A DNA stretch of 40,391 nucleotides, taken from positions 1 through 40,391 of the forward strand of contig JAJFFJ010000080.1 of the NCBI GenBank assembly GCA_021776685.1, given 5' to 3'. The stretch's first letter is position 1, and every line of letters begins with the position of its first letter. A program made the translations under genes and the position numbers. This DNA is from Alphaproteobacteria bacterium (lineage in GTDB: Bacteria; Pseudomonadota; Alphaproteobacteria; Bin65). The notes under the pieces were generated by a model. The model was not told the origin of the DNA, did no database searches, and saw nothing but the letters and a program-made list of their open reading frames with translations. Of the stretch, positions 2,463 to 27,848 are shown piece by piece.

Positions 2463-3658
2463 CGGTCAACCTCCCCAAACACAATGTCCATGGAACCGAC
2501 AATGGCGACCACGTCCGCCAGCAAGTGGCCTTTTGACAGATAATCGGTCGCCTGCATGAACGCGAAGCCCGGCGCGCGGATCTTGCAGCGGTAGGGCTTG
2601 TTGCTGCCGTCTGACACCACATAGACGCCAAATTCACCCTTGGGCGCTTCTACTGCCGCATACACCTCGCCGGCCGGCACGTGATAGCCCTCGGTATACA
2701 GTTTGAAATGATGGATCAGCGCTTCCATCGACTGCTTCATCTCGCCCCGTTTCGGTGGCGTGATCTTTTTGTCGTCCGCTTTTACAGGACCGTCCGGCAT
2801 GGTCTCGATCGCCTGGCGCATGATGCGCAGGCTTTGACGCATCTCTTCCATGCGCACCATGTAACGATCGTAACAGTCGCCGTTGGTGCCGACGGGAATG
2901 TCGAAATCGTAGTTTTCGTAGCCGTCATAGGGCTGCGACTTGCGTAGATCCCAGGCGGCCCCGGAGCCGCGTATCATCGGCCCACTGAAGCCCCAGTCGA
3001 GCGCCTCTTCAACATTGAACTTGCCGATGTCGACAGTGCGCTGCTTGAAAATGCGGTTGTCGTTCAGAAGCGTCTCGATATCCGCGATCACCTTCGGATA
3101 GGTTTCTGTCCAGGCGAGGATGTCGTCCGCCAGTCCCGGCGGCAGGTCCTGATGGACACCGCCCGGGCGGAAATAGGCCGCGTGCAGGCGTGCGCCCGAT
3201 ACCCGCTCGTAGAATTCCATGAGCTTTTCGCGTTCTTCAAAGCCCCACAGGAACGGGGTCATCGCCCCCACATCGAGCGCGAAAGTCGTGATGTTCAGGA
3301 TGTGGTTGAGGATACGGCCGATTTCAGCATAGAGAACACGAATCGCCTGTCCCCGGGCCGGCACTTCCAGCCCCAGCAGCCGTTCGACGGCCAGCGCGAA
3401 TGCATGCTCCTGATTCATCGGCGCGACATAGTCGAGCCGGTCGAAATAGGGCACCGCCTGGAGGTAGGTCTTGTACTCGATCAGCTTCTCGGTGCCGCGA
3501 TGCAGCAGGCCAATGTGCGGATCGGCCCGCTCCACAACCTCACCATCCATCTCCAGCACCAAACGCAGCACGCCATGGGCCGCCGGGTGCTGCGGACCGA
3601 AGTTCAGATTGAGATTTTTGATCTCCACATCGCCGGGTTTGGTGGCGCCATCGACCAT
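2459..3658 (-). CDS. nuoD: NADH-quinone oxidoreductase subunit D (49 kDa type)
   Basis: 399 residues, the usual length for a stand-alone NuoD. The subunit lies at the base of the peripheral arm and forms part of the quinone-binding pocket; the family descends from the large subunit of NiFe hydrogenases. Family signatures are visible: [19 protein letters not shown] near the N-terminus, [12 protein letters not shown], the [18 protein letters not shown] segment and a C-terminal DIVFGEVDR. The first base of its stop overlaps the nuoE start in an ATGA, and its own start overlaps the nuoC stop (TGATG). It is separate from NuoC, unlike the fused NuoCD of enterobacteria. Confidence 0.97.
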
Positions 3659-23464: not shown

Positions 23465-23797
23465 CTAGCCGCGGTCCTCGCCCTGGGTCACCAGCACCAG
23501 GGTATCTTCGACAGCGATCTCCACATGGGTCTCGCCATCGCCGACAAAATAGCAGCTGCCCGCGGGGACTTCCCGCCCCGGCTCGCCATCTTGCTCAATG
23601 CGCATACGACCCTCGAGCACCATTACCTGCACCCACTTTGAATGGTCATGGGGCGGCACGGCACAGCCTGCCGGCATGCGAAAAAAAGCCGAACGCACAT
23701 CATAGTCGCCCTCGAACACCACGGCCTTCGACATGGTAGCGCCGCGCACATCCACGTCGGTCCACTCGAGTTTTGCCGGATCAATATAATCAGTCAT
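23465..23797 (-). CDS. Cupin-domain protein
   Basis: 110 residues, a single small cupin barrel. Metal-ligand positions are visible in PPHDHSKWVQVMVLEGRM (two histidines, with a possible acidic ligand in the same strand) and in the second motif SCYFVGDGETHVEIAVEDT (one histidine). This is the layout of single-domain cupins such as ChrR-like and anti-sigma-associated cupins; substrate unknown. A GGGAGG ribosome site precedes the ATG at 23797. It lies 72 nt behind the reductive dehalogenase gene on the same strand, so it could be co-expressed. Confidence 0.85.
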   Translation of the reverse strand: MTDYIDPAKLEWTDVDVRGATMSKAVVFEGDYDVRSAFFRMPAGCAVPPHDHSKWVQVMVLEGRMRIEQDGEPGREVPAGSCYFVGDGETHVEIAVEDTLVLVTQGEDRG

Positions 23798-23869: not shown

Positions 23870-25225
23870 TTACCCAGCCTTGGCGCGCTTCAGTTCTTCA
23901 GCGGCTTTCTCGCCATCAACAAGCCCCTGCTTGCGGTCCAGCGGCACTGGCTCGCGCGCCTTGATGTCGGGCCAGGTTTCCGGTGGATAGACCGCATTGG
24001 GCCGATGCTCTTTCTGCTTCTTGCGCTCGAGGGTCAGATCGCGCTCGTTGGTTTTCTCCGCGCGCACCACAGGTCCGTCCTTTTCAAGGGTTTCCACGTC
24101 CCACCACCATTTCTTGAGCATGTTGCGCTTGCCATAGCCCATCTTGTCGTCGAGCCAAATCAGCATGCGATGGGTCCATTTCCATTTGATCGCCATCCAC
24201 ATGGTCAGGCGATGGGCCATCAGCCCCTCCTTGTTCCACGGACACATTTTCATGCAGCGGCCGCAGGCGGAGCCCTTGAGATTGGTCACACGATATGTGG
24301 TGCATTTGCCGATGTCCGGCTTCCAGATCTCGTAGCCGTTATACATGACCTTATCGCCGTACGGGATCGCCTGTGCCGGACATTCCCTCGCGCATTTCTG
24401 GCATTTATCGCAGAAATCCTGCAGGCCGAAATCAATCGGCTTGTCGGGGATGAGGGGCAGGTCCGTCGTAATCACCGCCGTCTTGTGGCGCGGACCGATA
24501 AACGGATTGAGGATCACCTCGCCGATCCGGCTGAGCTCCCCCAACCCGGCCAGCAGCATCAGCGGCACCTGCTGGACATCGCCGTCGGCATTGGAATGGG
24601 ACTGGGCCGGCACGCCCAGGCGCCGAATATAGTCGGCCACGATGGTCGTGACCGTCGAGCCTTTGAGATATGCGCGGAAGCTCTGACCGCCTGAAATCCA
24701 GTCATCCCCGGTCGAGCCTTCGAACGTATCCCAGCCCTGATCGATGACCACGACAATGGCGTATTTGTGCCGGGTCGTGATCGGCTCGCCATTGATGTTG
24801 TGGGAGTACCAGGCGTAATCCGGCATCTCGCAAATGCCGACCATGTCGGCATCCAGGAAATAGCACATGGATTTGATGTGCTTGGTGATCTCTTCAGCAT
24901 CGTTCGGCAGCGGCGCTTTTACCGGGTTCTCCTCGCCGCGGTGGATCGGCACCTGCTTCCAGTGCAGATGGCCGATAGCGGCATTGAACGGATTCTTGGT
25001 GACGAAGCGCTTGATCTCCTTCGCCGCCTTCGGCCCAAGGTCGCCAAAAAAGGCGCGGACGAATCCGTCCGCCCGCTTGGGCACACTCCGGACCTGATCG
25101 GTGATCAAGGTTGTCGGTTTGTCCACCCGCTTGATCTTTTCCATGGGGAACGGCCCCAGATGCATGGGGCGGTTCTTGCGTGAGCGGAGGCGCAGCATGG
25201 TTTGACCTGATCGATTGGGAGACAT
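23870..25225 (-). CDS. Reductive dehalogenase homologue (RdhA family), no Tat signal
   Basis: 451 residues from the ATG at 25225; a TTG at 25261 is in frame and would add 12, but then a striking palindrome would be coding. RdhA enzymes use cobalamin and two [4Fe-4S] clusters to remove halogens from organic compounds. The family core AGLGELSRIGEVILNPFIGP is followed by VITTDLPLIPDKPIDFG and the ferredoxin motif CDKCQKCARECP. A second set of cysteines lies in GKC and SACGRCMKMCP, giving the eight ligands of two clusters. There is no twin-arginine signal, no membrane segment and no RdhB anchor gene nearby, so it should be cytoplasmic. The C-terminus is tryptophan-rich and then strongly charged (ERKKQKEHR). 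The substrate is not known; a role as a QueG-like or other corrinoid enzyme is less likely because of the RdhA-specific core. Confidence 0.88.
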   Translation of the reverse strand: MSPNRSGQTMLRLRSRKNRPMHLGPFPMEKIKRVDKPTTLITDQVRSVPKRADGFVRAFFGDLGPKAAKEIKRFVTKNPFNAAIGHLHWKQVPIHRGEENPVKAPLPNDAEEITKHIKSMCYFLDADMVGICEMPDYAWYSHNINGEPITTRHKYAIVVVIDQGWDTFEGSTGDDWISGGQSFRAYLKGSTVTTIVADYIRRLGVPAQSHSNADGDVQQVPLMLLAGLGELSRIGEVILNPFIGPRHKTAVITTDLPLIPDKPIDFGLQDFCDKCQKCARECPAQAIPYGDKVMYNGYEIWKPDIGKCTTYRVTNLKGSACGRCMKMCPWNKEGLMAHRLTMWMAIKWKWTHRMLIWLDDKMGYGKRNMLKKWWWDVETLEKDGPVVRAEKTNERDLTLERKKQKEHRPNAVYPPETWPDIKAREPVPLDRKQGLVDGEKAAEELKRAKAG

Positions 25226-25230
25226 CTGCT

Positions 25231-25256
25231 TTATTCGTATCATATGATATGAATAA
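25231..25256. promoter_or_regulatory. 26-bp palindrome before the rdhA-like gene (candidate operator)
   Basis: An inverted repeat with 13-bp arms and one mismatched pair (25237/25250), centred on the perfect 12-mer TATCATATGATA. It is AT-rich in a GC-rich region and ends only 5 nt before the preferred ATG at 25225. Size and symmetry suit a dimeric regulator of the MarR type, and a marR gene lies 1.7 kb upstream on the same strand. The binding partner is inference. Confidence 0.7.
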
Positions 25257-25310: not shown

Positions 25311-26735
25311 CTAGATGCGCCCGAAATTCTTGGCCGCCTTGTCCGACCGGGCCATACGCCGTTGAGACAGGTTCAAAATCCATGACGCGATGTTTGCCTT
25401 GGTGAACGGCGCTGGCAGGCGTCGGATCATCGATGGCAGGCTGTAAAACCGGCCATAGGTGTCGCGGATTCGCTGCTCCATTTCCGCCGGCGTACCGTAT
25501 GGCGGATCGATATCGCACTTTATGCCGGGTGCCCGCCCCAGGGCTGCGTCGTCGAGCACCTGGCCCGCAGCCATCATACGGTCATAGAGCGGCGTGCCCT
25601 TATGCGGCCCCAGAATATAGAAATAGGCCACCGGCACATTGTGATGGTTCAGAAACTTGAGCGTCTGTTCGGTTGCATCAGGCGTCTCGCCCTCGAAGCC
25701 AAAAACGAAATTGAGGGAATAGCTGATCCCGCGCCGCCTAAGTCCGCCAAGGATCGCTTCGTAGTCATCGACCTTGTTGAAACGCTTGTTCATAGCGGCA
25801 AGTGTTTCTTCGTTGATGCTCTCCATGCCCATATTCACGTGCAGGAGACCGCTCCGTTTGGCCATATCCATAAATTCGTCGTCGAGACACAGATATGTGG
25901 TCCACAAGGTGGACCATCGGATCTTTAGCGGGATCAACGCTTCCATCAGTTCCAGAGCACGCTCCTTCTTGCCGGCGAACATGCTGTCGGCGAAGAAGAT
26001 GTTGCGCGCGCCGGTGTGGCGGATTTCCTCGACGACATTTTCTGCCGGGCGGTAACGGTATCGCTCGCCCATAAAAAACCGTTCCGAGCAGAATTCACAT
26101 TTGAAGGGACACCCGCGGGAATTCTGGACTGAATAGGTGCGCAGCAATTTCGGCGCACGAATATCTGAAAGATCGTAACGGGGCATCGGGAGATCGTGGA
26201 GTGGATGATTCTCCTCGGCGCGATAGACCGGCTTCAAGCGGCCAGACGCCGCGTCCTCCAGCATCTGCGGCCAGATATCTTCGCCTTCCCCAATACCCAC
26301 CGCATCGCAATGTTGCGCCGCCTCATCCGCGTGGAAAAACGTATGCGGACCACCCATGATGACCGGAATCTGACGGGCCCGGAAAGCGGCGGCAATTTCA
26401 TAGGCGCGCAACGAGGTGATGGTCCAGGTGGTGATTGCCACCACATCCACTGGCGCATTCAGATCCAGCTCCTGCACCTGTTCGTCGACAAGCTCCACGT
26501 CCCAGTCGGCCGGCGTCAGCGCGGCCAGATAAGGCAATGTGAGGCCGATCAATTGCCGGCGCTTGGTCTTATGGAGGGGGCCGTCTGGACTCACCCGATA
26601 GGTCGGCTGGATTATGAGTATTCGGGGCCGGCCGTATCGGCGGGAACGTGGGGACGGTATGCCAGATGCTTCGGTCCCAGCACCCGTGGCACCTCGGATA
26701 CTTGTCGGTATATGGGAATTATCGTGGTCAATCAT
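25311..26735 (-). CDS. B12-binding-type radical SAM protein (BchE-like family)
   Basis: 474 residues. After a poorly conserved first 35 residues comes a Rossmann-like cobalamin-binding-type domain (RILIIQPTYRVSPDG, then VDVVAITTWTITSLRAYEIA, then IPVIMGGPHTFFHADE, about 38-165) without the DxHxxG motif of classical B12 domains. A radical SAM barrel follows, with the cluster motif C209-x3-C213-x2-C216 in NSRGCPFKCEFCSERFF. Relatives methylate, cyclise or rearrange unactivated carbons, for example BchE and the hopanoid methylases; the substrate here cannot be told. A GGGAGGAA ribosome site precedes the ATG. It is 85 nt upstream of the rdhA-like gene's start. Confidence 0.88.
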   Translation of the reverse strand: MIDHDNSHIPTSIRGATGAGTEASGIPSPRSRRYGRPRILIIQPTYRVSPDGPLHKTKRRQLIGLTLPYLAALTPADWDVELVDEQVQELDLNAPVDVVAITTWTITSLRAYEIAAAFRARQIPVIMGGPHTFFHADEAAQHCDAVGIGEGEDIWPQMLEDAASGRLKPVYRAEENHPLHDLPMPRYDLSDIRAPKLLRTYSVQNSRGCPFKCEFCSERFFMGERYRYRPAENVVEEIRHTGARNIFFADSMFAGKKERALELMEALIPLKIRWSTLWTTYLCLDDEFMDMAKRSGLLHVNMGMESINEETLAAMNKRFNKVDDYEAILGGLRRRGISYSLNFVFGFEGETPDATEQTLKFLNHHNVPVAYFYILGPHKGTPLYDRMMAAGQVLDDAALGRAPGIKCDIDPPYGTPAEMEQRIRDTYGRFYSLPSMIRRLPAPFTKANIASWILNLSQRRMARSDKAAKNFGRI

Positions 26736-26937: not shown

Positions 26938-27384
26938 TTATGTTAACTGGCCGGTTCTGCTGACCAATTTGGTAAGTATCTTGCCCAACGTGGCTTTTTC
27001 ATGATCCGAGAGGCCCTCGGTAATCTCCCGATAGCGCTCAGTGGCGGCGGGTTCAATCCGGGCATAAAGCGCTCGGCCTTTCCGGGTCAGCCTGAGAATA
27101 TGGCGCCGTTTATCCACCGGATCGAGCCGGCTCGACACGTGTCCCGCCTCTTCCAGCCGGTGTACGGCCCGATTGACCGCCATCTTCTCCATCCCCCACG
27201 CCTTTGTAATTTCACGCGCGGTCCGGTCGGGCCGGGTGTGCAACGACATCACCACCCGCCATTCGGCAATCGACAGGCCGAATTTCGCCGTTACCTCCGC
27301 CGCAAACGCGCGACCGATGCGGTTGGAGACGACATGGATGTCTGCAAGCAGATTTTCGGGGGTGCTGGCGGATTTCCCGGCCAT
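26938..27384 (-). CDS. MarR-family transcriptional regulator
   Basis: 148 residues, a typical size for this family of dimeric winged-helix regulators, usually repressors released by small aromatic ligands. The DNA-binding core is TAREITKAWGMEKMAVNRAV followed by the wing HVSSRLDPVDKRRHILRLTRKG, with flanking dimer helices. It starts on the stop of the preceding membrane-protein gene (ATGA overlap) and so is probably co-transcribed with it and the AceE-like gene. Likely targets are its own operon and the palindrome before the rdhA-like gene; that is inference. Confidence 0.92.
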   Translation of the reverse strand: MAGKSASTPENLLADIHVVSNRIGRAFAAEVTAKFGLSIAEWRVVMSLHTRPDRTAREITKAWGMEKMAVNRAVHRLEEAGHVSSRLDPVDKRRHILRLTRKGRALYARIEPAATERYREITEGLSDHEKATLGKILTKLVSRTGQLT

Positions 27385-27848
27385 CAGCCTATTGGGTCTT
27401 TGGCTGGATTTGTTTCCGGCACTGCAGCGCAGCGGCGATCAGCTTGGCGGTCGGCGCTGGTCATGTCTTTCGGGCTGCTCATGGATTTGAGGCGCGCCTC
27501 ACCAACATTCTTGATGAAGCTATCCGTCACGCAGACGCACATGCGCTTGCAAGCCTTGGCCTGACGGGTACGCTCGACACACCGGTTTGTGCATCCCCGC
27601 TCCATGCCAGCGCGGACCTGGGCGATGGTGCTACCCTTTTGAAAGCGGTCAACGTTTGTGAACAGGCCGACGGCGAGCAGCAAGATGAACGTTACCGCTG
27701 CAATCAGCCCGAACCATTTGCGCATCGAAGCACGCGCCGATGGCTCCCTGCGGCGCGACATGAAATGGCCCACGAGGTAGATGCCCAACGGCACGATCAG
27801 CACGAACAGCAACGTGCCGACGATATACCCGAGTTGCTCTGGGCCCAT
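27384..27848 (-). CDS. Two-span membrane protein with a cysteine cluster, unknown function
   Basis: 154 residues. Two predicted membrane spans (about 9-28 and 45-63) flank a short basic loop (SRRREPSARASMRKW). A soluble tail follows with five cysteines in 21 residues: C86, C90, C100, C104 and C106 (GCTNRC, ACKRMCVC). The basic loop suggests it is inside, putting the cysteine tail in the cytoplasm too, though a short signal of this kind is weak evidence. No family recognised. The TAA stop of the AceE-like gene forms part of its AAGGA ribosome site, so the two are translationally linked; the cysteines could bind metal or form disulfides. Confidence 0.8.
   Translation of the reverse strand: MGPEQLGYIVGTLLFVLIVPLGIYLVGHFMSRRREPSARASMRKWFGLIAAVTFILLLAVGLFTNVDRFQKGSTIAQVRAGMERGCTNRCVERTRQAKACKRMCVCVTDSFIKNVGEARLKSMSSPKDMTSADRQADRRCAAVPETNPAKDPIG

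Follow-up and report, generated by a model that had tools for sequence, protein, structure and literature searches.

The stretch analyzed here, referred to as the window, comprises positions 1 to 40,391 of contig JAJFFJ010000080.1 (assembly GCA_021776685.1) from an alphaproteobacterium of the GTDB group Bin65, and our subject is a gene on its minus strand, rdhA, which encodes a member of the reductive dehalogenase (RdhA) family. The open frame runs from 25261 to 23870, contains ATG codons at 25225 and 25198, and appears to be coding, with a GC fraction of 0.77 at codon position 3 versus 0.41 at position 2. The product would have 451 residues from the first ATG and 442 from the second. The ATG at 25198 is the more likely start, because homologues start there in the alignment, because AGGTC sits just upstream, and because the spacing between the start and the core of a probable operator (below) then agrees in three genomes (35–39 bases). 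A sequence-only reading of this DNA had recognized RdhA core sequences and both sets of [4Fe-4S] cysteines, and all four motifs (AGLGELSRIG, DLPLIPDKPIDFG, CDKCQKCARECP and CGRCMKMCP) were found in the translated frame. The last two are the [4Fe-4S] motifs of the RdhA family, defined as CXXCXXCXXXCP and CXXCXXXCP (PMC6797604). The gene and its principal sites are given below, with the residue numbering of the solved enzyme NpRdhA following PMC7565698.

23870–25198, minus strand: rdhA, single-core cytoplasmic reductive dehalogenase homologue (TIGR02486, phmmer to NpRdhA, fold match, homologue alignment)
24680–24682, minus strand: Ser182, equivalent to NpRdhA Ser422, substrate hydroxyl binding (alignment; role, PMC7565698)
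24668–24670, minus strand: Tyr186, equivalent to NpRdhA Tyr426, proposed proton donor (alignment; role, PMC7565698)
24482–24484, minus strand: Lys248, equivalent to NpRdhA Lys488, substrate hydroxyl binding (alignment; role, PMC7565698)
24377–24412, minus strand: first [4Fe-4S] motif, CDKCQKCARECP, residues 272–283 (alignment)
24290–24292, minus strand: Arg312, equivalent to NpRdhA Arg552, substrate hydroxyl binding (alignment; role, PMC7565698)
24239–24265, minus strand: second [4Fe-4S] motif, CGRCMKMCP, residues 321–329 (alignment)

The rdhA product scored 189 bits against TIGR02486, above the curated cut-off of 160.35, and 27.7 bits against TIGR00276, the model for epoxyqueuosine reductase (QueG), whose cut-off is 200. 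PF13486 gave no match to the product, yet it matched four places with paralogues in the same genome; since TIGR02486 does detect the rdhA product, we regard this miss as a limit of that profile. Among solved relatives, phmmer ranked NpRdhA first (E 4.9e-158), followed by PceA (1.3e-33) and QueG (0.017). Structure prediction with AlphaFold2 (five models, 20 input sequences; mean pLDDT 81.3, pTM 0.86) gave a model that aligned over 435 residues with residues 243–692 of NpRdhA (4ras; Z 48.9, rmsd 2.1), compared to Z values of about 27 for PceA and about 15 for QueG. NpRdhA was also the nearest solved structure by Foldseek, with 46–47% identity in the structural alignment, and through this match the predicted model has the cobalamin-binding core fold. 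Together, these data identified rdhA as encoding a reductive dehalogenase family member and not QueG, a candidate that we rejected on both its profile score and its fold score.

The localization of the product was assessed from its sequence and its flanking genes. No Tat motif was present at the N-terminus, where there was also no hydrophobic stretch, and the sole RR pattern lay at residue 201. The Kyte-Doolittle maximum over 19 residues was 1.32, so that no membrane segment was found, and no RdhB-like small membrane gene flanked rdhA. The product is thus cytoplasmic and Tat-free in the manner of catabolic RdhAs, and we rejected a respiratory RdhA for the lack of a Tat signal, membrane helix or RdhB. 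There was also no fused C-terminal PDOR-like reductase, as the product stops approximately 120 residues past the second cluster motif and profile searches were likewise negative. The sequence-only reading had described a soluble, non-respiratory RdhA with neither a twin-arginine signal, an RdhB anchor on either side nor a fused ferredoxin/flavin reductase, which left its electron donor open, and on each of these points our analyses were in agreement with it.

Fisher et al. (PMC10463259) set catabolic RdhAs apart from their respiratory counterparts by a second, vestigial copy of the core, which imitates the dimer interface of respiratory enzymes and renders NpRdhA monomeric. This vestigial N-terminal copy is absent from the rdhA product, which has one core in 442–451 residues. 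The same architecture was seen in every relative of more than 55% identity whose contig was complete at that place: those at 70–75% identity (L035, L036 and the five Defluviicoccus metagenome-assembled genomes L037–L041), one at 60% (G011) and those at 56–58% (G202, G294, two in G307, two in G384, and G210). A Myxococcota protein (L044) with 48% identity was also single-core. Such single cores occurred in at least 8 of 385 Alphaproteobacteria genomes, and two-domain forms of 47–54% identity, with or without a C-terminal extension, in about two dozen of the 385 (open frames of about 700–820 and 1060–1260 codons).

The hydroxyl-binding and proton-donor residues of NpRdhA were conserved in the single-core proteins. 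In NpRdhA, S422, K488 and R552 hold the substrate hydroxyl and Y426 is the proposed proton donor (PMC7565698), and this serine, tyrosine, lysine and arginine set was present without exception in the 17 full-length single cores and the 15 full C-terminal cores of two-domain proteins. Alignment to NpRdhA showed that N452 is also kept, as N212. The set is missing from the vestigial N-domains, and in the remaining RdhA paralogues of the source genome S422 is replaced by V, T or A and K488 by R.

Several features surround rdhA:

25231–25256, no strand assigned: 26-bp palindrome TTATTCATATCATATGATACGAATAA with core TATCANNTGATA, immediately ahead of rdhA, probable operator for MarR (shuffle test)
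25311–26735, minus strand: B12-binding radical SAM protein, between marR and rdhA (PF04055 E 4e-20, PF02310 E 1e-8)
26938–27384, minus strand: MarR-family regulator, conserved partner of rdhA (PF12802 E 8e-14)
27384–27848, upstream of marR and touching its start: small membrane gene near rdhA; its 154-residue product has two hydrophobic stretches and ends in a cysteine-rich tail
23465–23797, minus strand: small cupin protein downstream of rdhA (PF12973 E 7e-10)

No occurrence of the palindrome was expected from shuffles of the window. Its core, TATCANNTGATA, is also upstream of rdhA in L035 and L036, in both of which a MarR gene directly precedes; a MarR gene and a palindromic operator lie ahead of rdhA in three genera. 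The remaining matches to the core among 58 loci were only copies of these three places, with no unrelated locus. The 4.5-Mb genome has two sites, and the second (C106, near an MnmE-like gene) may be a chance match, because a reversed control pattern also matches once. The best matches of the window MarR protein include the MarR genes of these two relatives, directly upstream of single-core rdhA in G017 (53%) and G003 (44%). Three other loci (L054, L083 and L085) combine a distinct palindrome (around TTATAACGTTATAA) upstream of rdhA with a distinct MarR gene downstream. Neither a MarR gene nor the palindrome was seen at the Defluviicoccus single-core copies, where an amidohydrolase gene precedes rdhA and a convergent Rid-family gene follows. 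Based on this arrangement, the MarR protein is predicted to bind the palindrome upstream of rdhA, and the marR gene and conserved operator bear out the view of the sequence-only reading that the cluster is regulated.

Some of the single-core genes have neighbors for aromatic-ring cleavage. A gentisate 1,2-dioxygenase gene (460 bits, cut-off 442) and a fumarylacetoacetate-hydrolase-family gene adjoin some of them, genes for LigA and LigB extradiol dioxygenase subunits are upstream in another setting, with an HpaB-type monooxygenase, and a 3-hydroxyanthranilate 3,4-dioxygenase gene (242 bits, cut-off 220) is near another. Such neighbors are what one would expect around an enzyme that dehalogenates phenolic compounds ahead of ring cleavage.

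Based on these findings, we consider it likely that the rdhA product is a catabolic reductive dehalogenase of the NpRdhA/BhbA branch that has a single catalytic core, resides in the cytoplasm and is under MarR control. Its predicted activity is reductive dehalogenation, with ortho-halogenated phenols as the most likely substrates. In the mechanism that we propose, the two [4Fe-4S] clusters would reduce cobalamin to Co(I), which would attack the halogen ortho to the phenolic hydroxyl, while Ser182, Lys248 and Arg312 would hold that hydroxyl and Tyr186 would supply a proton; the dehalogenated phenol would then pass to ring cleavage. As the vestigial domain is absent, the enzyme is probably a PceA-like homodimer. 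A separate system, built on ferredoxin or flavodoxin and not encoded nearby, would supply its electrons, and a ligand would relieve MarR repression of rdhA.

Several observations weigh against this interpretation. Pocket residues diverge from those of NpRdhA (F290 to G, K307 to I, P311 to V, A419 to G and M423 to F), and therefore the substrate would not simply be that of NpRdhA. There is no aromatic-degradation gene adjoining rdhA in the window, nor is there a ferredoxin or reductase gene linked to it there; such genes were also not recognized near the single-core loci from gene lists, although no profile search of every neighbor was made. Lastly, three cobalamin biosynthesis markers (the CbiC, CbiJ and CobO/BtuR families) had no match in the genome, which is 98.85% complete. 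As the genome nonetheless codes for several B12-type proteins, its cobalamin is probably imported. With respect to the pocket, one binding mode of NpRdhA has K307 in contact with the 3-bromo-4-hydroxybenzoate carboxylate. The loss of this lysine hints weakly that a 4-hydroxybenzoate may not be the natural substrate; the hint is weak because R, A, I or V occupies that position in most relatives.

The alternative that best survives is that the product is a class III corrinoid Fe-S reductase with the RdhA fold that acts on a non-halogenated aromatic with another leaving group, or on a halogenated natural product in a non-catabolic role. The altered pocket residues around the conserved hydroxyl-binding set are compatible with this, as are the lack of substrate evidence in the window and the many RdhA-like paralogues of the same genome that have no assigned role. 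However, the product has the exact Ser/Tyr/Lys/Arg set that NpRdhA uses on ortho-halophenols, as well as its 46–47% identity to that enzyme, and we consider this alternative unlikely.

The radical SAM gene raised another explanation, in which the RdhA and the radical SAM protein share one biosynthetic or modifying pathway with MarR acting over both. The genes are consecutive on one strand (27384 to 23870) and both products are B12-type proteins, and the sequence-only reading had considered this neighbor significant. We examined the link by synteny and by a search of 31 genomes. The models nearest to the radical SAM protein, each scoring far under its cut-off, were for B12/radical SAM proteins of the lipid or hopanoid kind, and its best matches in the 30 relatives were 31–34% identical, with none adjoining rdhA, not even in genomes whose rdhA is 73–75% identical. 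As there is no close orthologue, adjacency is limited to the source genome, and the operator sits between the two genes, a joint pathway is very unlikely. The radical SAM gene is best regarded as an unrelated neighbor whose membership in the rdhA system is doubtful, and the weight that the sequence-only reading gave to it was not supported. Of the remaining neighbors, the cupin gene is possibly co-transcribed with rdhA, with no match beside rdhA in the relatives, and the 154-residue protein had no family match above threshold.

The phylogeny bore on whether the single core is an original or a reduced form. The single cores and the C-terminal cores formed one group against the other RdhA paralogues with support of 100/100, which places the catalytic core with two-domain proteins of the NpRdhA/BhbA type. 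The C-terminal cores of two-domain proteins formed a clade of moderate support (91/93, or 89/94 without L044; bootstrap values of 89–91%), and the single-core lineages branched at its base in an unsettled order. In a tree that included them, the N-domains fell outside the single and C-terminal cores, a placement likely affected by long-branch pull because N-domains evolve fast. In approximately unbiased (AU) tests, monophyly of all single cores was not rejected (p 0.42), and neither was the union of N- and C-domains in one clade (p 0.09). The single core is a plausible ancestral state on these trees. More tentatively, with the odds somewhat against it, single-core soluble RdhAs might be the ancestral form of all catabolic RdhAs, as MarR-controlled homodimers; equally tentative is the corollary that one duplication and fusion might have replaced the second subunit with the vestigial domain, turning a dimer into a monomer.

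The converse, that rdhA is a secondarily truncated and decaying derivative of a two-domain catabolic RdhA, fits with the existence of two-domain forms in this family, among them one of the source genome that a contig end interrupts, and the trees are compatible with loss of the N-terminal domain. It is nonetheless highly improbable, as every catalytic residue is intact, the regulator and operator are conserved, and its start and architecture recur throughout a clade that spans several genera. Identities as QueG or as a respiratory RdhA, which have the corrinoid/ferredoxin fold in common with the product, can be dismissed on the scores and missing export features given above.

Comparison with known systems placed the product closest to NpRdhA of Nitratireductor pacificus (PDB 4RAS, 6ZXU, 6ZY1), with which it shares the catalytic core fold, both Fe-S motifs, the residues S422, Y426, N452, K488 and R552, solubility and the lack of a fused reductase. 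NpRdhA differs in the five replaced pocket residues, in its vestigial N-terminal core copy (about 700 residues versus 442) and in the ferredoxin and ferredoxin oxidoreductase genes alongside it in its own genome. The self-sufficient catabolic RdhAs BhbA and JtRdhA have the core family, cytoplasmic location and aerobic setting in common with the window protein; the vestigial domain of BhbA and the C-terminal PDOR-like reductase of these enzymes are absent from it. The respiratory PceA of Sulfurospirillum multivorans, a dimer, has a single core, two Fe-S clusters and the same fold, but is exported and anchored and has about 25% identity over 312 residues (Z 27).

No single-core clade within the NpRdhA/BhbA branch was found in the literature searched, which is weak evidence given its partial coverage. 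Novelty is limited by Ros_A3X954 of Roseobacter sp., a protein of another branch that debrominates 2,6-dibromophenol and is soluble without a Tat signal (PMC13101508). Its published domain and cluster positions (174–345) imply a single core, as in the window protein (PMC13101508), and its host is an aerobic marine heterotroph. Compared by published motifs and positions, Ros_A3X954 (CDICTKCADACP, CAICMRVCP) resembles the other paralogues of this genome (CDICQKCADACP, CAICMRVCP) and is unlike the window protein (CDKCQKCARECP/CGRCMKMCP); it also scores on PF13486, whereas the window protein does not.

The genome has about 11 more RdhA homologues, in loci L045–L053. Four are above the TIGR02486 cut-off (two in tandem in L045, and those in L047 and L048), and L046 holds the two-domain NpRdhA-type homologue interrupted by a contig end. 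Six shorter homologues (325–366 residues, 102–122 bits) are under that cut-off and well over their own QueG scores. At 3450–5461 of L053, next to an acyl-CoA synthetase-like gene, two short RdhA-like genes stand in tandem; neither reaches the TIGR02486 cut-off, both fall far short of the QueG one, and they may represent a separate, uncharacterized family of corrinoid reductases. Elsewhere, two genomes of one genus have tandem single-core rdhA pairs (L084 9149–11778 and L086 8433–11062) flanked by a TRAP-type transporter and gentisate 1,2-dioxygenase, each a good candidate for an operon for halogenated gentisate or salicylate use. The features named in the sequence-only description of the protein all stood; the absent vestigial domain, the operator, the relatives in aromatic clusters and the genomic paralogues were not mentioned in it. 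The genome also has two haem-copper oxidase genes, which suggest aerobic respiration.

Among oxygen-tolerant B12 enzymes, catabolic RdhAs hold the most interest for the clean-up of phenols that carry bromine or chlorine, and their vestigial domain has so far counted among their hallmarks. That a clade shares their active site yet lacks this domain suggests that the domain is dispensable, and the single-core form offers a smaller enzyme for expression and crystallization. The conservation of the MarR operator suggests an inducible sensor of the natural substrate, and the single-core clade gives a route to testing the origin of the core duplication.
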